Below, piece after piece: positions 30,183-45,839 of a stretch of DNA of 48,368 bases. The notes below the pieces were generated by a model. That model was not told where the DNA came from and made no database searches. It saw nothing but the letters and a program-made list of their open reading frames with translations. Both the position numbers and the translations under genes were made by a program. The first letter of the stretch is position 1. Every line of letters begins with the position of its first letter. The DNA is from Crocinitomicaceae bacterium (GTDB taxonomy: Bacteria > Bacteroidota > Bacteroidia > Flavobacteriales_D > Crocinitomicaceae): NCBI GenBank assembly GCA_021740085.1, contig JAIPAL010000009.1, forward strand, positions 1 to 48,368, written 5' to 3'.

Positions 30183-30265
30183 AATAATGCACTGTAGACA
30201 AGCTTTATTCACAAAAAAAAAAACTTTAATGTTTGCTTATTGTATTATTATTTTTAATTTTATGT

Positions 30266-30278
30266 TGTCATTTTGACA
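30266..30278 (+). promoter_or_regulatory. Palindromic operator A, before the starch block
   Basis: TGTCATTTTGACA is a perfect 5-3-5 inverted repeat. Its right half contains a TTTG (30272-30275) at a 19-base distance from a poor -7 box (TAACCTTT, from 30295), so a bound regulator would cover the -33 region. Nearly the same site and 17 following bases recur before susC. Confidence 0.65.
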
Positions 30279-30315
30279 CTAAGTATTATTTTTTTAACCT
30301 TTTAAATCTTTTTTT

Positions 30316-31056
30316 ATGAAAAAAATCTTTACGCTAATCTCTGCTTGTTTGGTGGGTGCTGTGGCTTTCGCTCAAGCAGATGTGACTTTTCAAGTAGATG
30401 TCACGAACTATGTTGCTGGTGGAGCAACTATCGACGGTACAGGTATTCGAATTGCTGGTAATTTTTCTGGTAATGGTGCTACTGCCAATGGAGGTCCTAT
30501 GGCGGATTGGTCACCAACAACTGCTGGTTCTGCCATGACAGACATAGGAAACAATGTTTGGGAAATTGTGGTTACATTTCCTGCTGCTGGAGGAAACCTA
30601 ACGTATAAATTTGTAAATGGTAACTGGGGTATGAATGAAGGTACAGATCCAATGAGCACGATCGCTACTGGTGGTTGTGGTGTAGATGATGGCGCTGGGA
30701 ACATAAACCGCACGATGGTTATCCCAGGTGTTGGAACAACTGTTCGTTACTGTTGGGACATGTGTTTGTACGCATGCAACGGAAGTGGAGCAAGTCTTAC
30801 AGAAGGCAGTATCTCTAATTTAGTGGTTTCTCCAAATCCTGCTACAGATGTAACTACCTTTGCATTTGAAACGAATGAAAACAATGCTACAGTTACTTTA
30901 TTTGATCTTTCAGGTAAAACAGTAGCTGAGCAAACTGCCGTTACAGGTGCTTCTAATCAAATTGAGGTGAATACGGCTAATTTAATGGCTGGTTATTATA
31001 TCTATTCAGTGAAAGCTGGAGACGATGTAGTTACAGGTAAATTAATGAAGAAATAA
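30316..31056 (+). CDS. T9SS-secreted protein with a CBM20-like putative starch-binding domain
   Basis: This 246-residue protein has a signal peptide (MKKIFTLISACLVGAVAFAQ), a beta-rich middle and a type A T9SS sorting domain (from about residue 170: LVVSPNPATD, then VTLFDLSGKTV, ending in GYYIYSVKAG and a Lys-rich tail). The middle reads VTFQVDVTNY, IRIAGNFSG, a Trp, MTDIGNNVWEIVVTF and NLTYKFVNGNWG; this order of strands with GNF, NxW and YKF is like CBM20/CBM26 starch-binding modules. It is probably released or anchored at the cell surface to bind alpha-glucan. It is the first gene behind operator A, and a hairpin follows it. Confidence 0.75.
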   Translation: MKKIFTLISACLVGAVAFAQADVTFQVDVTNYVAGGATIDGTGIRIAGNFSGNGATANGGPMADWSPTTAGSAMTDIGNNVWEIVVTFPAAGGNLTYKFVNGNWGMNEGTDPMSTIATGGCGVDDGAGNINRTMVIPGVGTTVRYCWDMCLYACNGSGASLTEGSISNLVVSPNPATDVTTFAFETNENNATVTLFDLSGKTVAEQTAVTGASNQIEVNTANLMAGYYIYSVKAGDDVVTGKLMKK

Positions 31057-31075
31057 TCTTTATTGTTCTTTTTTG

Positions 31076-31103
31076 AAAGCCTATGTGAAAGCATAGGCTT
31101 TTT
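31076..31103 (+). terminator. Hairpin terminator after the secreted binding-protein gene
   Basis: AAAGCCTATG (31076-31085) and CATAGGCTTT (31092-31101) form a perfect 10-bp stem with a TGAAAG loop and a T-run. It ends 15 bases before the amylase ATG with no good promoter between, so it is likely leaky and raises the first gene's mRNA over the rest. Confidence 0.8.
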
Positions 31104-31118
31104 CTTTACCTTAACCTT

Positions 31119-33887
31119 ATGAAAACGAGATATAAATCACTTTTCTTTTTGCTTGTTTTAACATTTTCGTTAAATGGACAAATTTTAGAGCTTAGTCCTG
31201 CTTTTCCTACGGTAAATGATGTGGTAACTATCGTTTATGACGCGTCTCAAGGCAATGCCGCTCTACTCGGTGCAAGCCAAGTGTATTGTCATGCTGGATT
31301 GATTACCTCTACAAGTACTTCCCCAACCAATTGGCAGTATGTTCAAGGGATTTGGGGGCAAGCAGACCCACAGGTTCAAATGACCAACCTTGGTAATAAT
31401 AAGCATTCAATAACCATTAATATAGCTACTTTTTATGGTTTCCCAGTGAATACAAATGTCTTAAAATTGGCGTTTGTTTTCAGAAATCAAGCGGGAACAA
31501 CAGTAGGTCGCGCTGCCGATGGCAGTGATATTTATTATGATATTTACCCCGTTAACGGTGGCCTTCAAGCGGCTATCTTCAATCCCATTCCACCCTTACT
31601 GATAGATTTAAATCAAAATTTCGTATTTAAAGGGCAATCCAATCAAATCGCAAGTCTAAGCCTTAAACAGGACGGATTCCTGATTCAAGCAGCTAGTAAC
31701 ACAACTATATTAAACTACAACATGTCGGCAACTTCTGCGGGTACGCATACCTTATTATTTGAAGCCAACAATGGAACCGTTATTCAAAAAGACAGCCTTA
31801 TTTATACTGTAAATCCGTCGGTTTCTTATGTGAATCCGCCCCTAGGTATTAAAAATGGAGCAAATTACATCAATGATTCGACCGTTATATTCCAACTTTA
31901 TGCCCCCGAAAAAAACCATATTTACTTGATTGGTGATTTCAATAATTGGACGGCTACTGCGCCTTATCACATGAATCGTTCTATCGACTCAAGCCGTTGG
32001 TGGTTGATGTTAGATAACCTAAATCCAGGCCAGAAATATGCCTATCAATATTTAATTGTCGGTCAAGCTGCGTATGCTGATCCAATCAGTACGCTTATAC
32101 TTGACCCTAGTAACGACGGTTTTGTGGGTTCAATAACTTTTCCAACTATGCATCCATACCCAACAGGTCTGACTACTGGGATGGTGTCCGTTTATGAAAC
32201 AACCCCACAAGTGTATAATTGGCAAAATTTATTTATTCGCCCGGATAAAAAAGATTTGGTGATCTACGAACTTCTAATAAGGGATTTTGTAACGGCCAGA
32301 AACTACCAAACCTTAATAGATACGATCGCTTATTTGGATCAATTGGGAATCAACGCCATTGAATTGATGCCTAATTTTGAATTTGAAGGCAACCAAAGTT
32401 GGGGCTACAACCCCTCTTTTCACCACGCTTTAGACAAGTATTACGGAACCGCTCAGAAATTCAAGGAATTTGTAGATACGTGTCATGGAAGAGGCATTGC
32501 CGTTATTACAGATATGGTTTTAAATCATGCTTTTGGACAAAATCCTATGGTTAACATGTATTGGGATGCTTTAAACAGCAGACCTGCAGCAAATAACCCT
32601 TGGTTCAATGCAGTTTGCCCACATCCACCTAACTGCTGGGGATATGACTTCAATCACTCCAGTTCAGCAACCAAAGAATATGTTGATCAAGTCAATCGGT
32701 ATTGGATTGAAGAGTACCATATCGACGGTATTCGTTTTGATTTCACAAAAGGTTTCGCAAATACAGCTGCAAGTTATAGTATCGAGCGCATCAATAATAT
32801 CAAACGGATGTCTGATAGCATTTGGTCCTTTGACCCTAGTCAATATGTGATTCTTGAGCATTGGTGCGACAACAACGAAGAGGAGCAATTGGCTGATTAT
32901 GGTTGTATGCTATGGGGGAATGTTACTTTTGGTTATCAAAATGCTGCCAAAGGGTATATCGCAAATTCGAGTTTGATGAACGGTATCTATACCAACAGAA
33001 CATGGGCGCTACCACACCTCATTACCTACATGGAAAGTCACGATGAAGAGCGATTGATGTACGAATCCATTACCTATGGAAACGCGACAAATCCTTCACA
33101 CAATGCCAAAGATCCTTATACGGCTTTGGGAAGAATGCAGGGTTTAGCGGTGAGCTTCTTGACCCAACCTGGCCCGAGAATGATATGGCAATTCGGTGAA
33201 ATAGGTTACGACATTTCAATAGATTATCCTTGCCGAACGTGCAACAAGCCCATTCTTTGGAACTATTTGCAGCAGGGGCGTCGCCAACAACTATTGGATG
33301 TCTATAAAGCTACTTTGGCCTTGCGCAACAATTACGAAACCTTTCGCTCCTTGAATTTTCAAGCTAGTTTAGGAGCAGGTATTAAACGCATGATTATGAA
33401 TCATGCTAGCATGAACGGAATTTCATTAGTGAATGTAGATGTAAACGTGGCTTCAGCAGTTCCAGCTTTTCAGCATACCGGTTGGTGGTATGAATATTTT
33501 TCAGGAGATAGCCTCAACGTCAGCAATGTGAATAGCGGAATCGTTTTGCAACCTGGTGAGTACCGCGTATATACCGATATCAAATTACCTAAACCATACA
33601 TTACCTCCGTGGCGAGTTTAGAAGAATTGGAGACAGAAGCTTTTGAGTTCAAGGTTTATCCTGTTCCGTTTGATGAAAGCTTGAGCCTCTCCTTCAATTC
33701 AGTTGGCTTTCTGCCCTACGAGATACAATGGTATACTTCTGATGGTCAACTAGTAGATTCCAAAAAAGGATTCTCTAATTATGGTGTGAATGCCGTGGAC
33801 TGGAAAAATATACAGATTCCTCCAGGAACGTATTTAATAGTGCTGCACCTAGGAAATGAATTCACTTCAAAAATTATAGTAAAATGA
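31119..33887 (+). CDS. T9SS-secreted GH13 alpha-amylase-family enzyme
   Basis: This 922-residue protein has a signal peptide (about 1-20), two N-terminal beta domains (about 22-232), a CBM48-like domain (about 245-350, with HIYLIGDFNNWT), a GH13 barrel (about 375-770) and a T9SS sorting domain at the C-terminus (VYPVPFDESL, ending GTYLIVLHLG and IIVK). Catalytic residues are the nucleophile Asp541 in GIRFDFTKG, the acid/base Glu580 in VILEHWCD and Asp642 in MESHDEERL. DMVLNHAFG gives region I. It probably cuts starch or glycogen outside the cell, taking the SusG role, but with a T9SS signal instead of a lipoprotein anchor. The last 4 bases overlap the CotH gene (ATGA). Confidence 0.92.
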   Translation: MKTRYKSLFFLLVLTFSLNGQILELSPAFPTVNDVVTIVYDASQGNAALLGASQVYCHAGLITSTSTSPTNWQYVQGIWGQADPQVQMTNLGNNKHSITINIATFYGFPVNTNVLKLAFVFRNQAGTTVGRAADGSDIYYDIYPVNGGLQAAIFNPIPPLLIDLNQNFVFKGQSNQIASLSLKQDGFLIQAASNTTILNYNMSATSAGTHTLLFEANNGTVIQKDSLIYTVNPSVSYVNPPLGIKNGANYINDSTVIFQLYAPEKNHIYLIGDFNNWTATAPYHMNRSIDSSRWWLMLDNLNPGQKYAYQYLIVGQAAYADPISTLILDPSNDGFVGSITFPTMHPYPTGLTTGMVSVYETTPQVYNWQNLFIRPDKKDLVIYELLIRDFVTARNYQTLIDTIAYLDQLGINAIELMPNFEFEGNQSWGYNPSFHHALDKYYGTAQKFKEFVDTCHGRGIAVITDMVLNHAFGQNPMVNMYWDALNSRPAANNPWFNAVCPHPPNCWGYDFNHSSSATKEYVDQVNRYWIEEYHIDGIRFDFTKGFANTAASYSIERINNIKRMSDSIWSFDPSQYVILEHWCDNNEEEQLADYGCMLWGNVTFGYQNAAKGYIANSSLMNGIYTNRTWALPHLITYMESHDEERLMYESITYGNATNPSHNAKDPYTALGRMQGLAVSFLTQPGPRMIWQFGEIGYDISIDYPCRTCNKPILWNYLQQGRRQQLLDVYKATLALRNNYETFRSLNFQASLGAGIKRMIMNHASMNGISLVNVDVNVASAVPAFQHTGWWYEYFSGDSLNVSNVNSGIVLQPGEYRVYTDIKLPKPYITSVASLEELETEAFEFKVYPVPFDESLSLSFNSVGFLPYEIQWYTSDGQLVDSKKGFSNYGVNAVDWKNIQIPPGTYLIVLHLGNEFTSKIIVK

Positions 33888-35308
33888 GGATTTTGTTCTC
33901 GGTTCTATTTTTAGTTTTTTCCTTCGCTTCTATTTCTCAATTGGTACATCCTGCCAATTCGGCTGCCTTTAAACAAGATGAGGTGGCGAAAATTTACATC
34001 ACCATGAGCCCCCAACATTTTAATACCATGGTTGGCGATAGTTCTGGCTCAAGTTACGAATTTCCGGCATCGTTCATTTATATAAGCAGTACTCTTTCGG
34101 ATACACTTTCTACCATAGGTATTCGGCTTCGTGGAAATACCTCCTTGCAATCTGCTAAAAAATCCTTTAAATTAGACTTCAATGCTTATGTTCCCAGTCA
34201 GAAGTGGGAAAATTTAAAATCCATGAACCTCAATGGAGAACATAACGACGTTTCCATCATGCGCGCCCGTACTTGTCATGAAATGCTCCGATGGGCCGGT
34301 TGTCCTGTTGCTCGAAGCTCTTATGTAGAATTGTATATAAACGGAACCTATAAAGGATTATACCTCAACGTTGAACACTTTGACGATCAGTTTTTAGAAG
34401 CTCGGTTCATTGGAAACGCTGGTGGTAATTTATACAAGGCAGGCTATGGCGCCGATCTCACTAATTTGGGTAGTAATCCCAATGCTTATGTCCCACTGTA
34501 TGAACTTAAAACCAACCAAGATACCAATGATTATTCAGGATTGATTCATTTTATAGAGGTTTTAAATAACACTTCTAATGCAGAATTCCCTTGCGCCATT
34601 CAAGAAGTATTGGATGTGGACCTTTGTTTAAAAACCATGGCGCTTGAAGTGTTGGCAGCCCATTGGGACGGTTATATCGTGAACAAAAATAATTACTATC
34701 TCTACCAAAGGCCATCAGATGACAAGTTCGTTTACATAGAGTACGATGTAGATAATACATTCGGTGTTGATTGGTTCTCAATCGATTGGCAAACCCGCAA
34801 TATTTATTTATGGGCATTGCCAAATACCCAACGTCCCTTGTACTATCGTTTAATGCAAGTGCCTTATTTTAAAGATCGATTTTCCTATTATATAAATTTG
34901 CATTGTCAACAGTTTTTTAATCCTACTTTTTTACTTTCCGTATGGAACCAAACCCAAAGTGTTATCGCGCCATCTGCCCTTGCGGATACTTACAAAGGAC
35001 TAGATTATGGGTTTACCAATGCTGATTTTATGTCTGCCATTACTCAGAACTGGGGTAGCCACATACCTGTTAGCCTAAATGAGCATGTTACTTTGCGACA
35101 TTCATCGGCATTAAGTCAATCTTCATACCTAGGCTTGGTGAATCCTTGCTCTCTCAGTTTGACGGAATCCATTGATTTGGATGCTCCAATTCCAGTTTCA
35201 TACTATGATGTACTTGGTCGTATTTTGTTAGCACCGCCTGCAAATCAAGTTTATTTGGTGCGATATAACGATGGCAGTACTCGACAATTCTATTCCGTAG
35301 CACCATGA
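33884..35308 (+). CDS. CotH-type protein kinase, secreted, in the starch operon
   Basis: This 474-residue protein has a signal peptide (about 1-19, ending SISQ) and the CotH fold: IRLRGNTSLQSAKKSFKLDF, then NGTYKGLYLNVEHFDDQFL, AAHWDGYIVNKNNYYLY with Asp262, and the metal-binding YIEYDVDNTFG with Asp288 and Asp290. CotH kinases phosphorylate secreted proteins on serine/threonine, first shown for B. subtilis spore coat. The C-terminus, YYDVLGRILLAPP through VYLVRYND, looks like a worn or short T9SS sorting domain. Both ends overlap its neighbours by ATGA, so it is made with the amylase and neopullulanase. The substrate is unknown; neighbouring surface glucan-binding proteins are candidates. 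Confidence 0.85.
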   Translation: MRILFSVLFLVFSFASISQLVHPANSAAFKQDEVAKIYITMSPQHFNTMVGDSSGSSYEFPASFIYISSTLSDTLSTIGIRLRGNTSLQSAKKSFKLDFNAYVPSQKWENLKSMNLNGEHNDVSIMRARTCHEMLRWAGCPVARSSYVELYINGTYKGLYLNVEHFDDQFLEARFIGNAGGNLYKAGYGADLTNLGSNPNAYVPLYELKTNQDTNDYSGLIHFIEVLNNTSNAEFPCAIQEVLDVDLCLKTMALEVLAAHWDGYIVNKNNYYLYQRPSDDKFVYIEYDVDNTFGVDWFSIDWQTRNIYLWALPNTQRPLYYRLMQVPYFKDRFSYYINLHCQQFFNPTFLLSVWNQTQSVIAPSALADTYKGLDYGFTNADFMSAITQNWGSHIPVSLNEHVTLRHSSALSQSSYLGLVNPCSLSLTESIDLDAPIPVSYYDVLGRILLAPPANQVYLVRYNDGSTRQFYSVAP

Positions 35309-37215
35309 TGATTAGATTTTTCTTCGCTTGTTCAATGGCCTTGGCATGGCAAGGATATACTCAGAAAACTATTTTGAGCCATGTCGAGCCAGGTAATTGG
35401 TGGGTAGGGATGAAGCACCATCAGGTCCAAGTTATGTTGCATGGACCAAAAATTGCAAATTATATACCCAGTGTACAAGGATTGAATGTTCTTGGAATTA
35501 TTAAAACTGAAAATCCGAATTACCTCTTCATTACCGTTGAAACGCAAGAGAAAAATGCAGGGACGTATCCAATTATTTTGTTAGATAACAAGAAAAAGGA
35601 AGTGGCTCGTTTTGAATTCAAATTGGAAGAACGAATCTATCAATCAGCTAATCGAGAGGGATTTTCGTCTAAGGATGTGATTTACTTGTTGATGCCTGAC
35701 CGCTTTGCGAACTTGCTTCCCGGTCAAGACACCTACGAGGGAATGACAGAGCCGGGTAATCGCGATTTACCAGGCGGTCGCCATGGTGGAGATCTTCAGG
35801 GAATAATAGAACATTTAAGTTATATTAAGGAATTAGGTGCGACAACCATTTGGACGACCCCCTTGCTAGAGGATAATGAACCAACTTATTCCTATCACGG
35901 CTATGCGCAATCTGATTTATATAAAGTGGATCCGCGCTATGGATCGAACGATTGGTTCAAGGAAATGGTGCTAGAAGCTCACCGTCAAGGTTTAAAAGTG
36001 ATCAAAGATGAGGTGCCCAATCATTGGTCCAGTAAGCATTGGATGATGACGGACTTGCCAACCAAAACATGGATTCATGAATTCCCGACTTTTACGCGCT
36101 CAAGTTACCGCACTAGCACACAAATGGATCCCTATGCGTCAGAAATCGACGTCCGCGCTTCCGAAGATGCTTGGTTCGATACTTCCATGCCCGATATGAA
36201 TCAATCGAATCCTCTACTTTTGAGTTACTTGATTCAAAATACGCTTTGGTGGATCGAGTTTGCCTGCCTAGATGGACTGCGGGTAGATACGTATTCCTAC
36301 AATGATAAGCATGCCATTGCAAAATGGACTCAATCCATCATGGAGGAATACCCCAATCTAAATATTGTTGGCGAAATCTGGCTGCACAACCAAGCGCAAA
36401 TTTCTTATTGGCAAAAAGAAAGTCCCATTGGTGCTCTTGAATCATATGACAGTGGTTTGCCTTCGGTGATGGATTTTACCTTACACGATGCAATCACTCA
36501 AGCATTCAGCGAAATAAAACAGGGTTGGGATCAAGGAATGGTGCGTATTTATGAGAATTTTGTAAATGATTTTCTCTATAAAAATCCTAATAACTTGCTC
36601 GTATTTATGGAAAATCATGATACCAAAAGATTTAATGAGATCTATCCAAATCTTGCAGATTATAAACTCGCCCTTACTTTACTATCAACAACCAGAGGGA
36701 TACCACAGATTTATTATGGTTCTGAAATCGGAATGAAAGGATCCAAGGAAGTGGGAGATGCGGATATCCGAAGGGATTTTCCAGGTGGATGGGATACGGA
36801 CAAACAAACGGCTTTTTATGCCAACGATGATAAACGAAGATATGGACGCGAGGGAAGAACCCCTGAACAAGAGGCCTACTTTCAGTTCACAAAAAAACTA
36901 TTGAATTGGCGCAAAAATCAAGTCGTCATTCATGAAGGTAAACTCGTTCAGTATGTGCCAGAAAATAATGTATATGTCTATTTCAGAATTCAAGAAAGTG
37001 AAAATGGCCTTCAAAGTTCAAAACGCTTAATGGTAGTATTAAATAATTCAACGGATGAACAAAAGATCAACTTAGAACGATTCGAGGAGTCACTCGATGT
37101 ATCTCAACTCAAAAGCGTTCCCATTAGAAAAGAGTTTTTAAGTGATTTGCCCATTGATTTTTCTCAAAAAACACTAACTATTCCAGGAAAAACAGCATGG
37201 ATAATCGAACTCTAG
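35305..37215 (+). CDS. GH13 neopullulanase/cyclomaltodextrinase, periplasmic (SusA-like)
   Basis: This 636-residue protein has a signal peptide (MMIRFFFACSMALAWQGYTQ), an N-terminal cyclomaltodextrinase beta domain (about 22-115, GNWWVGMKHHQVQVMLHGP), a GH13 barrel and a C-terminal beta domain. Catalytic residues are Asp328 in GLRVDTYSY, Glu357 in IVGEIWL and Asp439 in MENHDTKRF; the region I segment reads KDEVPNHWS. The MPDRFANLLPGQD opening is typical of SusA-type neopullulanases that hydrolyse maltooligosaccharides and cyclodextrins after import. There is no T9SS domain, so it stays in the periplasm. It overlaps the CotH gene by 4 bases and the GH31 gene by 19 bases. Confidence 0.92.
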   Translation: MMIRFFFACSMALAWQGYTQKTILSHVEPGNWWVGMKHHQVQVMLHGPKIANYIPSVQGLNVLGIIKTENPNYLFITVETQEKNAGTYPIILLDNKKKEVARFEFKLEERIYQSANREGFSSKDVIYLLMPDRFANLLPGQDTYEGMTEPGNRDLPGGRHGGDLQGIIEHLSYIKELGATTIWTTPLLEDNEPTYSYHGYAQSDLYKVDPRYGSNDWFKEMVLEAHRQGLKVIKDEVPNHWSSKHWMMTDLPTKTWIHEFPTFTRSSYRTSTQMDPYASEIDVRASEDAWFDTSMPDMNQSNPLLLSYLIQNTLWWIEFACLDGLRVDTYSYNDKHAIAKWTQSIMEEYPNLNIVGEIWLHNQAQISYWQKESPIGALESYDSGLPSVMDFTLHDAITQAFSEIKQGWDQGMVRIYENFVNDFLYKNPNNLLVFMENHDTKRFNEIYPNLADYKLALTLLSTTRGIPQIYYGSEIGMKGSKEVGDADIRRDFPGGWDTDKQTAFYANDDKRRYGREGRTPEQEAYFQFTKKLLNWRKNQVVIHEGKLVQYVPENNVYVYFRIQESENGLQSSKRLMVVLNNSTDEQKINLERFEESLDVSQLKSVPIRKEFLSDLPIDFSQKTLTIPGKTAWIIEL

Positions 37216-39671
37216 TGAAGGCAATGTTTGTTTTTGTGGCCGTGGTACTTAACGCGTTTGCCTTTGGTCAAAATCCAAGCAGACAGTTTAAAAGTATTGA
37301 GTCAATAGATGCTGGTGTGAAGGTATCGGTGTCAGATGGAGTATATATCTTCAGAACCTATGGGCCTAATATTATTGAAACGACCTTTATTCCGAACGGA
37401 CAAAAACACGAAGCGAATTCACATGCCGTGCTTACACCACCTGACAATAATCCATTTACTTGGGCGGCTAGTTCAAACACCTTTATTCCTCCCTATTTAT
37501 TTATCTACAGCAAATCAGCGAAAAGCAAAGGGATAAATCCTTCGATTATTGTACAAACCAATCCGTTTAAAATTTCATATTTCTATAAAGGAAAGTATCT
37601 AATATCAGAACGTTGGGGCTATGATGTGGATACTACAATGGAAAAAATCCAATTTAATTTAAGCGAAGGAGAAAAATTGTTCGGAACAGGAAATCGGGTG
37701 CTTGGTATGGATAGAAGAGGCTATCGGCTACCCTTGTACAATAGGGCTCACTATGGTTATGAAACCCACTCGGAACAAATGAATTTTTCTATGCCCTTGG
37801 TAATTTCTGATCGATTGTATGCCCTTCATTTTGACAATTCCTACACTGGCTTTTTGGATTTAGATTCAAAAAAAGATAGCAGTCTGACCTATGAAATGAC
37901 TGGGGGAAGAAAAACTTATCAAGTGATTGCAGCAAGTGATTATAAAGAGTTGGTCTCCGCTTACACTAGCCTTACGGGTCGCCAACCCATGCCCCCGAGA
38001 TGGGTCTTTGGTAATTTTGCTAGCCGTTTCGGTTATCATTCGGAACAAGAAGCACGTACGGTTGTTTCCAAATTTAGAGCAGATAGCATTCCCTTAGATG
38101 CGATTGTTTTTGATCTGTATTGGTTCGGGAAAGATATTCAGGGAACATTGGGCAACTTTGCCTTTTATACAGATTCCTTTCCTACACCGCAGAAAATGAT
38201 CAATGATTTTTCAGATCAGAATGTCAATACTGTATTAATAACAGAACCTTTTATTCTTACCACATCTAATCGTTGGCAGGAGGCAAAAGATAAAAAATTA
38301 CTGGCTGTTGATAGCTTAAATAACCCTTTTACCTATGATTTTTATTTCGGAAATACCGGCCTAATTGATATCTATGCCCCCCATGCAAAAAAGTGGTTTT
38401 GGAATATCTATGCTGAGCTAGCAAATATGGGGGTCAAGGGCTTTTGGGGAGATCTTGGTGAGCCAGAGGTTCATCCTAGCAAATTGTTGCATGCCAATGG
38501 CATATCAGCGGACCAAGTGCATAATATTTATGGGCACGATTGGGCACGATTAATTTATGAGGGATACAAAACTACTTTTCCACTAGAACGACCATTTATT
38601 TTAATGCGGGCTGGATATTCAGGTTCTCAGCGTTTTGGAATGATCCCATGGACAGGCGATGTTAATCGCTCATGGGGTGGATTAAAACCTCAGATGGAAC
38701 TTACCATGCAGATGGGCATGCAAGGAATTGCTTATATGCATTCTGATTTAGGAGGGTTTGCTGGAGCGAACGATGATCCTGAATTGTATGTTCGCTGGCT
38801 TCAATATGGCGTGTTTCAACCTATTTTCCGACCGCATGCGCAGCAGGAAGTGGCTAGTGAAGCCATTTTTAAAGATGAAAAAACAAAACAACTGGCCAAA
38901 GAAGCCATCGAATTACGCTATCAATTGCTTCCTTATAATTATACCTTGGCTTTTGAAAATCATCTCAATGGCACACCACTTATGCGCCCTATTTTTATGG
39001 AAAATACTCAGGCATCGTGGGCGGATACCATCACTAACGAATTCATGTGGGGACCGAGTTTGTTGGTGAAGCCAATCACAAATCCAATCCTTAAAAATAC
39101 GCTGCCTCTTCAGGATGTAAGGGCGCCAAAGGGAACATGGTATGATCTACGAAGTGGAAAACAACGCATTGAAAACTATCAGCCAAATCAAACTAATCAA
39201 CATGAAGCGCATTACCTCATGCCTGGCGATTTATCGGGGATTCCTGTTTTGGTAAAAGGCGGGGCGTTTATCCCAATGTCACCAACCATTCAATCAACTA
39301 AAGATTATACTGATTCATCGGTAACGATTCATTATTATGATGACAAGGATATTAGGTCTAGCCAAGGGCAATGGTATGAAGACGATGGCTTGACCAATGA
39401 GGCTTTTGAGAAGGGCTTATATAAACTTCTTCGCATGACCATGAAACAAACTAATCGACAATCAACCTTGCTTTTTATTCCCGAATATGGAAAAAGTTGC
39501 TCGCAAATGTCTTTTTCATTTGAAGTGTGTATCCATTCTAAACGAATACCCAAAAACCTCATTTTAAATGGAAAGAAAAATATACCGTTCGTGTTGGATC
39601 AAGAAACCCAAACCATTCGTTTGATGACGCATTTGAGCGAAAAACAATCACGGTTAAAAATTAAATGGTAA
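37197..39671 (+). CDS. GH31 alpha-glucosidase, periplasmic
   Basis: This 824-residue protein has a signal peptide (MDNRTLVKAMFVFVAVVLNA, cleavage after FAFGQ). The ATG at 37197 is preferred over the ATG at codon 10 because it supplies the basic start. The family 31 catalytic barrel shows the nucleophile Asp419 in GFWGDLGEPE and the acid/base Asp488 in PWTGDVNRSW. The N-terminal galactose-mutarotase-like region has LFGTGNRVLGMDRRG. It probably releases glucose from short maltooligosaccharides in the periplasm, the job done by GH97 SusB in B. thetaiotaomicron. Its start lies inside the neopullulanase gene, so translation is likely coupled. Confidence 0.92.
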   Translation: MDNRTLVKAMFVFVAVVLNAFAFGQNPSRQFKSIESIDAGVKVSVSDGVYIFRTYGPNIIETTFIPNGQKHEANSHAVLTPPDNNPFTWAASSNTFIPPYLFIYSKSAKSKGINPSIIVQTNPFKISYFYKGKYLISERWGYDVDTTMEKIQFNLSEGEKLFGTGNRVLGMDRRGYRLPLYNRAHYGYETHSEQMNFSMPLVISDRLYALHFDNSYTGFLDLDSKKDSSLTYEMTGGRKTYQVIAASDYKELVSAYTSLTGRQPMPPRWVFGNFASRFGYHSEQEARTVVSKFRADSIPLDAIVFDLYWFGKDIQGTLGNFAFYTDSFPTPQKMINDFSDQNVNTVLITEPFILTTSNRWQEAKDKKLLAVDSLNNPFTYDFYFGNTGLIDIYAPHAKKWFWNIYAELANMGVKGFWGDLGEPEVHPSKLLHANGISADQVHNIYGHDWARLIYEGYKTTFPLERPFILMRAGYSGSQRFGMIPWTGDVNRSWGGLKPQMELTMQMGMQGIAYMHSDLGGFAGANDDPELYVRWLQYGVFQPIFRPHAQQEVASEAIFKDEKTKQLAKEAIELRYQLLPYNYTLAFENHLNGTPLMRPIFMENTQASWADTITNEFMWGPSLLVKPITNPILKNTLPLQDVRAPKGTWYDLRSGKQRIENYQPNQTNQHEAHYLMPGDLSGIPVLVKGGAFIPMSPTIQSTKDYTDSSVTIHYYDDKDIRSSQGQWYEDDGLTNEAFEKGLYKLLRMTMKQTNRQSTLLFIPEYGKSCSQMSFSFEVCIHSKRIPKNLILNGKKNIPFVLDQETQTIRLMTHLSEKQSRLKIKW

Positions 39672-39686
39672 TATTTTTTTTCTTTG

Positions 39687-39699
39687 TGTCAAATTGACA
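39687..39699 (+). promoter_or_regulatory. Palindromic operator B, before susC
   Basis: TGTCAAATTGACA is a perfect 6-1-6 inverted repeat, 14 bases before the -7 box at 39714. It differs from operator A only in the centre, and the following TTAAG/TATTTTT pattern is also shared. Confidence 0.65.
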
Positions 39700-39713
39700 T
39701 TAAGAAATATTTT

Positions 39714-39721
39714 TATATTTG
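39714..39721 (+). promoter_or_regulatory. -7 promoter box for susC-susD
   Basis: TATATTTG is a perfect TAnnTTTG, 17 bases after a TTG inside operator B, and 32 bases before the susC ATG. Confidence 0.6.
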
Positions 39722-39753: not shown

Positions 39754-42700
39754 ATGATTAGAAAACTACTTTTTACACTACTTTCATTGCTATTTGTTTC
39801 CTTAACTACTCATGGGCAAACATCTAGTATTATTGGAAAAATAACTGATGTTGAGGGACTTCCTGTATATCCAGCAACTCTTGTTTTAGAGGGGAAAGGT
39901 ATGGGGGCACAAACCAATGAGAATGGTGAATTTGAAATTAAATTTGTTCCTGCAGGAACTGTTGTTCTAATTGTTCGTGCCTCAGGGTTTGTTACATATA
40001 GTCAAGAAATTATTGTTTCTTCAGGTACTGTTCTTAATCAAAATATTACTTTGACAAAAGAAGCGAAAGAGTATGATGAGGTTGTCGTGATCGGATATGG
40101 AACAACAAGGACCAAAGACTTGACAGGTGCGGCTACCGTTATTACAGAGAAAAACTTTCTTCAGGGTTCCTTGGCTACGCCAGAACAGTTGATTATGGGA
40201 AAAGTGGCCGGATTGAAAGTTACCTCAAACGACGGAGCACCAGGTTCCGGGAGTACTTTGCGTCTTAGAGGTGGAACCTCGATCAATGCCAGTAATGATC
40301 CCTTGATTGTTATCGATGGTGTACCAATCGATAATGGTGGAATTGCTGGTGCCGCCAATCCTTTGTCATTGGTTAACCCTAACGATATTGCCTCTTTTGT
40401 CATTTTGAAAGATGCTTCTGCCACTGCTATCTATGGTGCGCGTGCGGCCAATGGTGTGATTCTCATTACCACCAAAAAAGGCAGTGCAAGTCAAAAAGAG
40501 GTTCATGTGACCTTAAATTCCAAGATTTCCATTTCCACCATTGCTAAATATGCGGAGGTATTATCCGGCGATTCTCTTCGAACGCTCATAAATAGACAGG
40601 GAAGCCAGCAACAAATAGATCTTTTAGGCGCTGCTAATACCGATTGGCAGAAAGAAGTATTTAGAACGGCCATTACCTCAGATAATAACGTATCCATTAC
40701 AGGAGGGATTATCGGATTGCCGTACCGTTTATCTGTAGCAAATCGCTTTGAAAATGGTTTGCTCAAGCGCGATAACATGAATAGAACATCATTGGGGCTT
40801 AACTTAAATCCAACGTTTCTCGATGGAAATTTACAATTGGAAGTTAATCAGAAAATGGTTCAATCACGTGCCTTTTTTGCCAATAGAGGTGCTTTAGGTG
40901 CTGCTTTCTTCGATCCAACTCAAGCTGTGCAATCAGGCAATAACAATCTCTTTGGCGGCTATTTTGAATGGATAGATAATGGCAAGCCCAACGTTTTATC
41001 AGCTCGTAATCCTCTGGGTTTAATTATGCAATCTGAAGACAGAAGTGTGGTCAACCGCTACATTGGAAATGCTAAAGTAACCTACAAAATGCCTTTTCTT
41101 CCAATGTTAAAGGCGACTGTCAATTTAGGAACAGATCAATCAGAAGGTACCGGCTATACCATAACTGATTCCTTGTCTGCTGCGGGTTATTTTACTCAAG
41201 GAAGCTACAGTCAATATCGCCAGACCAAAGGAAATAAATTAATTGAGGCCTATGCTAATTTTAATACGGGCGAAAAATACAAAGATCATCTCTTAGATTT
41301 AACTGCTGGGTATTCCTACCAAGATTGGTATACCTCAAGCCCTAATAACGCAAGCTTTAACCAAGCCCAAGACTCAATTATTGGTCAGCCGGCAGCTAAT
41401 CCTTTTTATACCAAAAATGCCTTGCTTTCTTTTTATGCAAGGGGTATTTATACGTTTAAAAATCAATTTGTTGTGAATCTGTCGATGAGAAGAGATGGTT
41501 CCTCCCGATTTAGTTCAGAACAGAGATGGGGCTGGTTTCCTGCCGCTTCTGCTGCTTGGTTGCTGAGCGAGGGTTTCTTGAAGGACGTCAAAGAAATCAG
41601 TATGCTAAAAATCAGGGTAGGTTATGGAGTAACAGGGCAACAAGACGGAATTGGAGACTATGCCTATATTGGAAATTACTTTGAGGGGGCAACCAATGCC
41701 CAATACGCTTTTGGTGGTCAATACTATACGGTTTTTCGTCCAGCAGGATATGATGCCAATTTGAAATGGGAAACGACAAGTAGTATCAATATTGGATTAG
41801 ATTTCGGATTATATAAAGATCGCTTCTCAGGGTCAATTGATGTATATAGAAAATCAACATCCGACTTATTGGCGACGGTTGCAGTACCAGCAGGAACTAA
41901 CTTTACGAATCAAATTTTGACGAATGTAGGTGGTATGCAAAACCAAGGAATTGAGGTGAGCCTAAACACAGGTTTGATCGCAAAAAAGAACATGCGCCTA
42001 GATTGGATGGTCAACTTTACTAGAAATTTTAATGAAGTGACCAAGTTGTCGCAAATCGAAGATCCAAATTCGCCAGGAATTTTAGTTGGGGGTATCGCAG
42101 GAGGAATTGGGAATCAAGTGCTGATTCACCAAGTGGGACAACCTACTTTTACCTATTTTGTGTATGAACAGCAATACGAGCAAGATGGGTCACTCATTGA
42201 AGTAGGTCAACAAGCTTCAATTGATATGAATGGAGATGGTACGATTAATACATCCGATAAATGGAAGGATACAAACGCATTTGTTGATCGAAATAATGAT
42301 GGCATCATTAACATCAAAGACCGCTACTATGCTGGCCAAGTGGCACCGAAGTTTTTTATGGGAACCGCGTTTAATTTTCAATACGGGAAATGGAATGCGG
42401 GCGTGTCTATGAGAAGCGAGATAGGCGGAACCATCTATAATAATATCCATTCAAATTCGGCGACATTTAGTGCCATTGATGGCACCAAAAAGTTTTTAAG
42501 CAACATCAGTTCCTTATTTTATGAGGACGAAGTGCAAAAAACAACGACCAATCAACTTTTATCAGATCATTATCTCGAACGGGCTGATTTCCTACGAATT
42601 GATAATATTAGTGTTGGGTATAATTTTGGTAAATTAGGATTTACCAAGGATAAAGTTGGGGTAAATGTTGGTTTTTCTGTTCAAAATGTATTCGTGTTCA

Positions 42701-42801
42701 CGAGGTACTCTGGACAAGATCCTGAGGTTGGCGGTGGTGTTGACAATAATTTTTATCCAAGACCAAGGGTGTATACCTTGAATCTAAACTTTGATTTTTA
42801 A
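39754..42801 (+). CDS. SusC/RagA-type TonB-linked outer-membrane transporter
   Basis: This 1015-residue protein has a signal peptide (about 1-22), a carboxypeptidase-regulatory-like domain (about 24-100), a TonB-box-like DEVVVIGYG, a plug with GSTLRLRGGTSINASNDPLIVIDGVPI split over residues about 165-195, and a C-terminal beta barrel ending YPRPRVYTLNLNFDF. It imports oligosaccharides with energy from TonB/ExbBD, working with SusD. Near the C-terminus it has two calcium-loop-like motifs in a row: DMNGDGTINTSD (824-835) and DRNNDGIINIKD (845-856); one is common in this family, two is unusual. susD follows after 10 bases. The substrate is inferred from the neighbouring amylases. Confidence 0.95.
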   Translation: MIRKLLFTLLSLLFVSLTTHGQTSSIIGKITDVEGLPVYPATLVLEGKGMGAQTNENGEFEIKFVPAGTVVLIVRASGFVTYSQEIIVSSGTVLNQNITLTKEAKEYDEVVVIGYGTTRTKDLTGAATVITEKNFLQGSLATPEQLIMGKVAGLKVTSNDGAPGSGSTLRLRGGTSINASNDPLIVIDGVPIDNGGIAGAANPLSLVNPNDIASFVILKDASATAIYGARAANGVILITTKKGSASQKEVHVTLNSKISISTIAKYAEVLSGDSLRTLINRQGSQQQIDLLGAANTDWQKEVFRTAITSDNNVSITGGIIGLPYRLSVANRFENGLLKRDNMNRTSLGLNLNPTFLDGNLQLEVNQKMVQSRAFFANRGALGAAFFDPTQAVQSGNNNLFGGYFEWIDNGKPNVLSARNPLGLIMQSEDRSVVNRYIGNAKVTYKMPFLPMLKATVNLGTDQSEGTGYTITDSLSAAGYFTQGSYSQYRQTKGNKLIEAYANFNTGEKYKDHLLDLTAGYSYQDWYTSSPNNASFNQAQDSIIGQPAANPFYTKNALLSFYARGIYTFKNQFVVNLSMRRDGSSRFSSEQRWGWFPAASAAWLLSEGFLKDVKEISMLKIRVGYGVTGQQDGIGDYAYIGNYFEGATNAQYAFGGQYYTVFRPAGYDANLKWETTSSINIGLDFGLYKDRFSGSIDVYRKSTSDLLATVAVPAGTNFTNQILTNVGGMQNQGIEVSLNTGLIAKKNMRLDWMVNFTRNFNEVTKLSQIEDPNSPGILVGGIAGGIGNQVLIHQVGQPTFTYFVYEQQYEQDGSLIEVGQQASIDMNGDGTINTSDKWKDTNAFVDRNNDGIINIKDRYYAGQVAPKFFMGTAFNFQYGKWNAGVSMRSEIGGTIYNNIHSNSATFSAIDGTKKFLSNISSLFYEDEVQKTTTNQLLSDHYLERADFLRIDNISVGYNFGKLGFTKDKVGVNVGFSVQNVFVFTRYSGQDPEVGGGVDNNFYPRPRVYTLNLNFDF

Positions 42802-42811
42802 CTAATTAGCT

Positions 42812-44380
42812 ATGAAAAAAATAATCATTTTCTCTCTGTTACTTGCCGGTATCACTGTTTCATCGTGTAAGAAACAACTAAACCAATCGCCAAAATATGG
42901 ATTAAATGCTGAGGTGGTGTATAGCGATCCCGATAACTACATTAAGGTATTGGCAAAACTTTATGCTGGTCTTTCTATGACAGGAAATCAAGGTCCTGCG
43001 GGCCAGGCGGATATTGCGGGCATTGATGAAGGATTTTCAGCCTATGTTCGCGTTTTGTGGAACTTACAGGAACTACCTACTGACGAGGCCATTTGTGGTT
43101 GGAATGATCCCGGTATTCCAGAATTAAATAAATCTCAATGGAATGCAGAAAATGTTTGGGTTAAAGGAATGTACTACCGGATTTATTATCAAATTACACT
43201 TTGTAATGAATTCATTTGGCAAGCAAGAGATGAGAAATTGGCGGAAAGGGGCTTTAGTGATTCAGATGTTGAGATGATTCGTAAATTTAGAAATGAAGCT
43301 CGCTTTTTACGCGCCCTGAGTTATTATCATGCTTTAGATCTATTCGGTAATGTACCCTTCGTAACGGAGTTAGATCAAGTAGGTGCTTTTCAACCGAAAC
43401 GAATAGAAAGATTGGAATTATTTGAATATGTCGAGAATGAGTTACTCGCTATTGAAGACCAATTATTACCGGCCTCCTCCGCACCTTATGGACGAGCATC
43501 TCAAGCAGCTGCACAATCGCTTATGGCCAAATTATATCTAAATGCTGAAGTATACACTGGAACCCCTCGGTATAACGATTGTGCGACATATTGCGAAAAA
43601 ATAATTAATGGAAGTACGCATCAATTGAGTGCAAATTATCAAAGCTTGTTTTTAGCCGACAATAATACTTCACCTGAGATTATTTTTCCAGTAGTCTACG
43701 ATGGTTTATATGCTCAAACATATGGAGGAACTACTTTTTTAATCTGTGCATCCTTGGGCGGCTCAATGGTAGCTGCAGATTATGGTGTAAATGGCAAATG
43801 GGCTGGGTTGCGTGCTAAACCAAATCTGGTAGATAAGTTTTCCGATTCAACCTTAGATTCAAGGTATTTGTTTTATCGTACTGGTCAAGTGAAGGATATT
43901 ACAACTATGGCTACCTTCTCTAATGGTTATGCTCTTCCAAAATTCAAAAACAAAACGTTGGCGGGTTTAAATGGCTCAAATAGTTCAAATTCTCCCCATG
44001 TTGACACTGATTTTCCTATGTTTCGTTTGGGCGATATTTATTTGATGTATGCGGAAGCTAAACACCGATCTGGAGATGCAGGTACTGCGCTTCAATATGT
44101 AAATATGTTGAGGGAAAGGGCCTACGGAAATAATGGCTATAATTTAGCCTCTGTTTCATTAAATGACATTTTAGATGAGCGCGCTAGAGAGTTGCAATGG
44201 GAAGGTACAAGAAGAACAGATCTTATTCGCTATGGGCTATTTACAAGTGGATCCTATCTTTGGCCATTCAAAGGTGGTGATGTGGCAGGAGCAGCTGTTT
44301 CTGATAATTTTAACCTGTTCCCCTTACCAACTTCTGACATTATTTTAAATCCAAATTTGATCCAAAATCCCGGGTATTAA
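42812..44380 (+). CDS. SusD/RagB-type outer-membrane lipoprotein
   Basis: This 522-residue lipoprotein has a lipobox with Cys19 (ITVSSCKK). The SusD fold shows in the TPR-like helices: ARFLRALSYYHALDLFGNVPFV, AAAQSLMAKLYLNAEVYTG, and the C-terminal FPMFRLGDIYLMYAEAKHRSG and LDERARELQWEGTRRTDLIRYG with LFPLPTSDIILNPNLIQNPGY. It lids the SusC channel and binds glucan at the surface. It is the second gene of the pair behind operator B. No terminator is seen before the convergent DUF2490 gene, 7 bases away. Confidence 0.95.
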   Translation: MKKIIIFSLLLAGITVSSCKKQLNQSPKYGLNAEVVYSDPDNYIKVLAKLYAGLSMTGNQGPAGQADIAGIDEGFSAYVRVLWNLQELPTDEAICGWNDPGIPELNKSQWNAENVWVKGMYYRIYYQITLCNEFIWQARDEKLAERGFSDSDVEMIRKFRNEARFLRALSYYHALDLFGNVPFVTELDQVGAFQPKRIERLELFEYVENELLAIEDQLLPASSAPYGRASQAAAQSLMAKLYLNAEVYTGTPRYNDCATYCEKIINGSTHQLSANYQSLFLADNNTSPEIIFPVVYDGLYAQTYGGTTFLICASLGGSMVAADYGVNGKWAGLRAKPNLVDKFSDSTLDSRYLFYRTGQVKDITTMATFSNGYALPKFKNKTLAGLNGSNSSNSPHVDTDFPMFRLGDIYLMYAEAKHRSGDAGTALQYVNMLRERAYGNNGYNLASVSLNDILDERARELQWEGTRRTDLIRYGLFTSGSYLWPFKGGDVAGAAVSDNFNLFPLPTSDIILNPNLIQNPGY

Positions 44381-44387
44381 GTCGTGT

Positions 44388-45080
44388 TTAGTTGATTTGA
44401 AGTTTGTATTTTATGCTGCCTATCCAGTAGTCATTATTATTGAGAAAAAGGTTTTTCTTACCTAAACTGATCTGTATGATTTGCGCTTTTGGTAATTCAA
44501 TGTCAAAGCCTATAAAATACCTGAACGCAGTAGTCCCTCCCGAAATCAAAACCTCATCTATGGTATAGGTGATATCCCTTTTCCAATTATAATAGTGCTC
44601 CGCATTCACAAAAGGAGTTAGCGGAAAGTTTTTGATGTCATACTTTATACCTAGTTTGTTTCGCAGCACACTCGAATTCCTTTTAAAACTTGTTGTGTTC
44701 CACTGGTTCTGTATGGTATAGCCAATATTCAACCTTGACTTTTCATCAAACCAGTCCACAAAACTGAAGTCTAGGCCAGCAATGTATCGTTGCGAGAAGC
44801 CCCATTTTTTCTGATTAAGATCCGAGTTGGAATTAGGCGACAAGCCCATTCGAAAACCAATGAACGGCTTTATCCCCTTTATAACCTTGACAGCTAATTC
44901 GGCGCTTAGTAAACTTTTATTGTAAGCGGTGAAGCCAAAATACCGTTGCTGTAAACCGATGCTAATTTCTGTTGTTTTTATGGGTTTGAAACTGCAAGAT
45001 ACGCCCAGCCAAGTTTGCATTTGACTTTGACCAGGAAAGTGAAGCGCCAATAAAAGAACAAGGAGCAAATGGCGCATCAA
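44388..45080 (-). CDS. DUF2490 family outer-membrane protein
   Basis: This 230-residue protein has a signal peptide (about 1-19, ending GQSQ) and repeated amphipathic strands (EISIGLQQRYFGF, SRLNIGYTIQNQWN, RNKLGIKYDIK, ending YWIGSIKYKLQIN), as in the DUF2490 family of predicted outer-membrane beta-barrels. Function is unknown. It is the last gene of a three-gene minus-strand operon; its start overlaps the end of the lipoprotein gene by 4 bases (ATGA). Confidence 0.7.
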   Translation of the reverse strand: MMRHLLLVLLLALHFPGQSQMQTWLGVSCSFKPIKTTEISIGLQQRYFGFTAYNKSLLSAELAVKVIKGIKPFIGFRMGLSPNSNSDLNQKKWGFSQRYIAGLDFSFVDWFDEKSRLNIGYTIQNQWNTTSFKRNSSVLRNKLGIKYDIKNFPLTPFVNAEHYYNWKRDITYTIDEVLISGGTTAFRYFIGFDIELPKAQIIQISLGKKNLFLNNNDYWIGSIKYKLQIN

Positions 45081-45835
45081 TAGATAATATTCATAGTTTC
45101 GACTTCTACAATACTATTATCCTCTGTAATGCTAGCTTGTATGCTTTCACGGGTCATGACGCCATTATTTACTGGGTCTTTAGAAAGTACATAGATGGTA
45201 TATTCCCCTTTTTGTAAGCCCTCGAAAGAAAAAGCTCCGGCTTCGTTGGTACGGACATCTTTTGCCGCAAAGGTATTTTGACCATAAATAATATAAACAC
45301 GTTCATTCGCGATAGGCGTATTGCTGCTGACACTCCCTGGTTTACCATTATTAACGACATCTACTGCAAAATTAGTGGTACCATTATCTGCGTCTGGCAC
45401 ATTAACCTGCCCTAAATCTGTGATAGTTAATATATCTGAAGACAAGGTGATGTTGTAGTTCGCTCCAGGAACAGCAAGTAGTGCCTGTCTTGTTTTTTCA
45501 GCAATTTCAATATTAGAGTCACTGTAGTTAAAGCTAACCATTATGCCAATTCTCCCTTGCAATTGGGGGTCAGATACTGAAATCCAAGTTGGGTTGTTAT
45601 AGTACACATAATAAAGTTTAGTTGGGTTAGAGGTGTTCAATAACCAATAATCACCATGCTCTAATTCAATTCCCGCTGTACAAATTACTTGCGTTATTTC
45701 TGATTCTCCTGCTTCTGAAGTACTGCCAACGACCTGGCCTCGAATGGCAGATGTGCCTCCTGGACCTTCAATTTTTTTGCATGAACTACTTAATACCAAA
45801 GCAGTGAAGGAAATTAAATAAAGTATCTTTTTCAT
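45077..45835 (-). CDS. Hypothetical lipoprotein with a regulatory-like beta domain
   Basis: This 252-residue protein has a lipobox with the Cys in LSSSCKK (residue 19), so it is a lipoprotein. The N-terminal AIRGQVVGST and the C-terminal DVRTNEAGAFSFEGLQKGEYTIYVLSKD are typical of carboxypeptidase-regulatory-like/prealbumin-like beta domains. The middle has no match I can name. Encoded 4 bases after the CotH kinase gene and overlapping the DUF2490 gene, it probably works with both at the outer membrane, possibly as a kinase substrate or anchor. Confidence 0.7.
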   Translation of the reverse strand: MKKILYLISFTALVLSSSCKKIEGPGGTSAIRGQVVGSTSEAGESEITQVICTAGIELEHGDYWLLNTSNPTKLYYVYYNNPTWISVSDPQLQGRIGIMVSFNYSDSNIEIAEKTRQALLAVPGANYNITLSSDILTITDLGQVNVPDADNGTTNFAVDVVNNGKPGSVSSNTPIANERVYIIYGQNTFAAKDVRTNEAGAFSFEGLQKGEYTIYVLSKDPVNNGVMTRESIQASITEDNSIVEVETMNIIY

Positions 45836-45839
45836 TTGA

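Follow-up and report, generated by a model that had tools for sequence, protein, structure and literature searches.

Two short palindromes precede the two parts of a starch utilization locus on a 48,368-nucleotide stretch of DNA from a Crocinitomicaceae bacterium (assembly GCA_021740085.1, contig JAIPAL010000009.1, positions 1 to 48,368 of the forward strand; hereafter the window). The palindromes are real and probably represent operators of one repressor. We propose, with a probability of roughly 80% and on the basis of sequence comparisons, that this repressor is a Nudix/NrtR-family protein, here called Nudix A, which would also act at a maltose operon. The initial annotation of the window had suggested one transcription factor for both halves of the starch locus, and the comparison across genomes supports this suggestion, since the comparative evidence favours one transcription factor for both parts.

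Two predicted operators in the starch locus

The palindromes TGTCATTTTGACA (30266-30278) and TGTCAAATTGACA (39687-39699) were confirmed on the forward strand at the positions given by the initial annotation. Both are intergenic: the first separates the first starch operon from a GHMP-kinase gene, which is IspE-like by eye, and the second separates susC from the GH31 gene. The pattern TGTCANNNTGACA has no window matches beyond these two (0.06 expected; two matches in 0 of 100 shuffles). Of the 17 bases 3' of the palindromes we counted 13 matching positions, not the 14 reported initially. The half-site is better written as GTGT, i.e. GTGT-N7-ACAC. In this form predicted operator 1 spans 30265-30279 (TTGT-CATTTTG-ACAC) and predicted operator 2 spans 39686-39700 (GTGT-CAAATTG-ACAT), neither being assigned to a strand, and in each site one half is perfect while the other carries one mismatch.

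The susC promoter (39694-39721, + strand) is canonical, with the -33 triplet TTG at 39694-39696 within the operator, a spacer of 17 bp and the -7 element TATATTTG at 39714-39721 (consensus TAnnTTTG according to PMC9723704). It is the right half of the palindrome that includes this TTG. The putative promoter of the first operon (30273-30302, + strand) combines a TTG at 30273-30275 with a 19-bp spacer and the weak -7 candidate TAACCTTT at 30295-30302. At 32 susC-type places in 34 loci of the same genus the -33 triplet was TTG in 25 and ATG in seven cases, with a spacing of 16-20 bp.

Conservation of the sites in related genomes

The initial annotation had named a search of the whole genome and conservation of the palindrome in related species as checks. 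The search of the 2.4 Mb genome returned few exact TGTCANNNTGACA matches, namely three, compared to one for the reversed-pattern control; this does not refute the proposed motif, and a number of this size is close to the expectation from shuffled sequence. The third exact copy lies inside an open reading frame (ORF) of 71 amino acids and was set aside. At a tolerance of one mismatch the 13-mer had 57 matches versus 27 for the control, which is too noisy to serve as stand-alone evidence, and the degenerate 15-mer KTGTMANNNTKACAM was found at three places in this genome, operator 1 and two within a repetitive coding region. The palindromes exceed chance because of their position and their conservation, while the count alone proves nothing.

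In related genomes the palindrome is conserved before both susC and the first operon. Of the 32 genus loci with susC, 28 had the 13-mer without any mismatch before this gene, three had it with one mismatch and one (G031) lacked it, and at the first operon it was exact in 15 of 19 loci, with one mismatch in three and two mismatches in one, all counts being based on the best upstream match per locus and therefore biased toward finding something. Measured against GTGT-N7-ACAC, 28 of the 32 susC sites and 19 of the 19 first-operon sites have at most one mismatch. These loci derive from 34 units, two of which have no susC and 15 no first-operon gene in the fetched stretch. The flanking columns provide the contrast to the biased counts, and both half-sites stand out from them. 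In loci with a 5'-longer first gene, the site is located upstream of that longer gene. In one genus genome (L093 of G008) the site occurs in two tandem copies before the first starch operon.

From an extended palindrome to a candidate regulator of the AraR type

An extended form of the motif, the perfect 21-bp palindrome TTAGTGTCANNNTGACACTAA, precedes gdhA in many genomes of the genus. A search of 299 genomes of the order detected it with at most one mismatch in 15 of them, compared to one control match, and all 15 genomes belong to the window's own family (ten to the same genus, five to other genera). Of these ten genomes of the same genus, G017 and G033 have the 21-mer next to a gene that looks unrelated to sugar use. 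In another genus of the family such a site lies before gap, and close to it a second site is part of the promoter region of a gene for a Nudix regulator, with zwf, pgl and edd as neighbouring genes. The product of this gene matches AraR of Bacteroides thetaiotaomicron in the PDB with an E value of 4e-48. In the crystal complex of AraR with DNA the operator GTGTTACTTTTACAC has the form GTGT-N7-ACAC, with Lys179, Arg180 and Asn181 at the GTGT (PMC4666351), and the motif described here has the same half-sites and the same spacing.

In the genome of the window, Nudix A is encoded outside the window on contig C46 at 6945-7667 (G000:C46:6945-7667), divergently from a maltose operon comprising a kinase-like gene (BadF-type, Pfam match under the cut-off), a GH13 amylase gene, an MFS transporter gene, a beta-phosphoglucomutase gene and a GH65-like gene, which is cut by the fetched stretch and labelled from its likeness to a scanned homologue. 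An exact GTGT-N7-ACAC is located between Nudix A and the maltose operon (G000:C46:6873-6887). Such an exact site is present in this intergenic region in 33 of 33 genus loci and with one mismatch in a locus of another genus (L262), and dinucleotide shuffles of these regions contained it in 2 of 3400 cases. The 7-bp middle of the site varies, the halves are invariant. Of 15 loci from other genera, 14 carry the site without mismatch in front of Nudix A, L262 again showing one mismatch; mononucleotide shuffles of these upstream regions gave an exact site in 1 of 3000 and one mismatch or better in 115 of 3000. The site at the maltose promoter follows directly after the -7 box TATATTTG and would therefore cover the start site. 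Since the site lies over the -33 region at susC and would lie over the start site at the maltose operon, both placements suit a repressor.

The protein consists of an N-terminal Nudix domain (PF00293 above the cut-off) and a C-terminal winged helix of the NrtR_WHD/AraR_C type (PF21906 with 3.7e-27 and PF19368 with 2e-12, both above the cut-off). According to the alignment its catalytic signature is impaired, as the Gly, one Glu of REUXEE and the last Glu are replaced. Lys179, Arg180, Asn181 and Arg183 of AraR are kept in five of five aligned proteins. The same applies to Arg86, Phe129 and His131 of the AraR pocket, and Arg34 is kept in four of five (Ser in G033, a genome in which a GH31 match was not found). 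Phe36 and Phe49 of the pocket are replaced, and 15-16 extra residues follow the Arg86 position in the alignment. A different sugar is plausible, and because Phe36 and Phe49 of the arabinose pocket are replaced, Nudix A was not filed as AraR proper, i.e. as an arabinose regulator.

Nudix A is also linked to the sites and to starch genes by position. It adjoins susD in G005 and G060, is separated from susD by a few genes in G171 and L067 (labels partly by eye), and in G145 and G323 has sites in front of starch-type genes at a distance of up to ~14 kb. In 27 genomes of other genera the one-mismatch pattern had 149 matches versus 54 for the control. For the 16 of these 27 genomes with listed sites (three of four sites listed for G206), 21 of the 75 listed sites lie at most 20 kb from Nudix A, where 0.92 would be expected, about five of the 21 being the promoter site of Nudix A itself.

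Proposed mechanism

By analogy to AraR, which leaves its DNA upon arabinose binding (PMC4666351), we propose that Nudix A represses starch and maltose genes until a starch-derived sugar binds. Its Nudix domain with the broken catalytic signature would sense a small sugar, while the winged helix would read GTGT-N7-ACAC. In the sugar-free form a dimer would occupy the -33 region of the susC and first-operon promoters and the start-site region of the maltose operon, thereby blocking RNA polymerase. Binding of the sugar would release the dimer and thereby induce the secreted enzymes, import via SusCD and the catabolism of maltose at the same time. The effector could be glucose, maltose or a closely derived sugar. 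By computation we established the sites and how well they are conserved, their agreement with the AraR operator, gene linkage and residue conservation, and we infer binding, repression and effector identity.

Several observations weigh against this assignment. Each of the two window sites deviates from GTGT-N7-ACAC in one half, and besides these two and the maltose-operon site no others were found in this genome. Compared to AraR, Nudix A has Arg for Lys184, His for Lys204 and Lys for Arg205. No site precedes susC in G031, a genome in which Nudix A does have its site, and in G272 and G343 no listed site was found near Nudix A. Among 56 stretches inspected, which are a selection from the listed exact sites in genus genomes, 23 had the site inside a mechanically called ORF, so that part of the exact matches is background. 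Finally, most genus genomes contain a second family member, Nudix B.

Other candidate regulators

It is unlikely that the operators are bound mainly by this paralogue, which is encoded on contig C68 of the same genome, or by both proteins. Nudix B belongs to the same family, has kept Lys179 and Asn181, and is present in most genus genomes, some of them without a full-length Nudix A match. G020 has conserved starch sites (L100) and only a match at the level of Nudix B; a gap in the assembly might account for this, although its completeness is given as 100%. In the genome of the window the Nudix B gene (locus L302) has an MFS sugar-permease-like gene and a further susC/susD-like pair (by eye) as neighbours. 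The recognition helix of Nudix B reads DKANFRK. However, Nudix B of this genome, the one sequence examined, has Ala in place of Arg180, the residue that in AraR intercalates into the operator. Moreover, no site was found at the thresholds used in 9 kb around the Nudix B gene, compared to 33 of 34 loci for Nudix A.

Still less probable is binding by a LysR or Lrp/AsnC regulator, in which case the likeness to AraR and the linkage to Nudix A would be incidental. Both families were weighed by motif shape alone: the 13-mer fits the T-N11-A shape of LysR as well as the 5-3-5 shape of Lrp/AsnC, and gdhA as a target would suit control of the Lrp type. Against this, the invariant part of the site at the Nudix A promoter is GTGT-N7-ACAC and not TGTCA-N3-TGACA, and the sites cluster around Nudix A.

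We consider it very improbable that the palindromes arose by chance or as an effect of promoter sequence, with the right half representing the -33 element and the remainder being coincidence. A genome-wide count near chance and the -33 TTG inside the right half of site 2 would agree with such an origin, but the left half, which has no promoter role, is conserved as much as the right half and is kept even in relatives whose SusC is ~60% identical. In addition, at the maltose promoter the same dyad follows the -7 box, and over 61 genus genomes the exact 13-mer has 195 matches while its reversed control has 41.

Hardly credible is a LacI-type maltose regulator, which the gene order in related Flavobacteriaceae could suggest: in seven other loci with this gene set, by eye, a LacI-type gene lies between susC and the maltose transporter gene (two of them Pfam-confirmed). 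Of the 61 genus genomes 53 have no LacI match, among them the genome of the window (88% complete), and the remaining eight carry a LacI-family gene. Genus genomes without LacI widely carry Nudix A and the sites, and the site centre is A/T-rich and odd-length with no central CG. Only a LacI gene lying in the 12% absent from this assembly and in the missing parts of the others would remove the contradiction.

Genes of the starch locus

All genes of the starch locus are encoded on the + strand. The first operon starts with a gene for a secreted protein that has a weak X25 pullulanase-domain match (below the cut-off) and a Por secretion tail (30316-31056). It is followed by genes for a GH13 amylase-family protein of 922 amino acids with CBM48 (31119-33887), a CotH-family protein (33884-35308), a GH13 cyclomaltodextrinase-like protein (35305-37215) and a GH31 alpha-glucosidase-like protein (37197-39671). 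Downstream of operator 2 are the genes for a SusC-type TonB-dependent receptor (39754-42801; TIGR04056 above the cut-off) and a SusD-type lipoprotein (42812-44380), whose top NCBIfam model is the starch SusD, below the cut-off. The region 3' of susD (window 44388-48017, - strand) contains two short genes without clear family and a second CotH protein gene, with a Por secretion tail.

A possible wider regulon in the family

The comparative evidence favours a regulon to which the maltose operon would also belong, joined in relatives by gdhA, gap, pckA and pdh genes. Within the genus, the exact 13-mer was present in 15 of 50 gdhA upstream regions (14 of 30 plus 1 of 20), where the site lies 88-102 bp upstream of the start codon. 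In 15 of the 50 regions no match with at most two mismatches was present or the only match was out of register as judged by eye, and some other regions kept GTGT-N7-ACAC with a changed middle. The gdhA upstream region of the window's own genome has no site, and gdhA is therefore not claimed as a target in this genome. In other genera, sites were found before gap, pckA (phosphoenolpyruvate carboxykinase) and pdhA-like and pdhB-like genes (pdh labels by eye; L349, L357, L227, L348).

Further occurrences of the site were seen in the genus. At L156, L157, L164 and other loci TTAGTGTCANNNTGACACTAA is placed between gdhA and a large secreted gene; the ~910-amino-acid gene divergent from gdhA was considered as a sensor-regulator and rejected, since its sequence looks like a large secreted protein by eye. 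In G060 (L154, contig C299) a site lies 54 bp before a GH13 gene, maltosyltransferase/GlgE-like by eye, with a distant GH31 match on the same contig. Seven genus genomes (L144, L155, L161, L163, L166, L168, L176) have an exact site at the extreme start of an ORF of 191 amino acids, and the true start of this ORF is probably the ATG just after the site. At L159 and L179 the site is located in a divergent region with a ClpC-like gene on one side and a glucosaminidase/LysM-like gene on the other (labels by eye).

Only tentatively, and with the odds somewhat against it, do we suggest that the Nudix repressor might be a global carbon regulator in the family, acting on starch, SusCD and maltose genes and in relatives on gap, pckA, pdhA, pdhB and gdhA, and sensing a central sugar instead of arabinose or ADP-ribose. 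A comparable role in other bacteria is that of CcpA or Cra. Whether a Nudix protein steers central carbon flow is a question that arises from the sites found in relatives upstream of gap, pckA and pdh genes.

Comparison with known systems

NrtR-family regulators of sugar use in Bacteroidetes are described for arabinose and xylose in the papers found (PMC4666351, PMC3878776). A Nudix regulator of starch or maltose was not found in the literature searched, mostly titles and openings of abstracts, nor did this material contain a regulator, operator and targets for starch use in uncultured Flavobacteriales of the kind proposed here. Within this literature, starch and maltose genes would be a new target set for the known NrtR/AraR family. 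AraR of B. thetaiotaomicron (BT0354, NrtR family) shares the Nudix domain with winged helix, the GTGT-N7-ACAC motif and targets in sugar use (PMC4666351), whereas the predicted targets of Nudix A are starch and maltose genes and not arabinose genes. NrtR of NAD metabolism, which senses ADP-ribose, has the same domain architecture. However, the NCBIfam NtrR model gave 115 bits against a cut-off of 400, and the neighbourhood and sites of Nudix A point to starch and sugar genes, with no NAD gene seen in the stretches read by eye.

SusR of Bacteroides likewise controls a susCD starch system, and its motifs are direct repeats (PMC3878776), whereas the sites here form an inverted repeat over the -33 region. 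Regulation of the SusR type was rejected by motif, no search for a SusR gene having been made, as the sites do not form a direct repeat with long spacer. The doubt expressed in the initial annotation that the sites are of a standard LacI-type or SusR-associated kind is borne out, considering the inverted repeat and the missing LacI match in the genome. By eye, seven Flavobacteriaceae-type loci with a LacI-type gene have the same gene set (susC, MFS, pgmB-like, GH65-like, GH13 and GH31), but Nudix A belongs to another protein family. Because LacI has no match in most genomes of the genus, it seems to have been replaced non-orthologously by the Nudix regulator at the starch/maltose locus. If this is true, the locus has switched its regulator family, with LacI in the inspected Flavobacteriaceae-type loci and a Nudix protein here.

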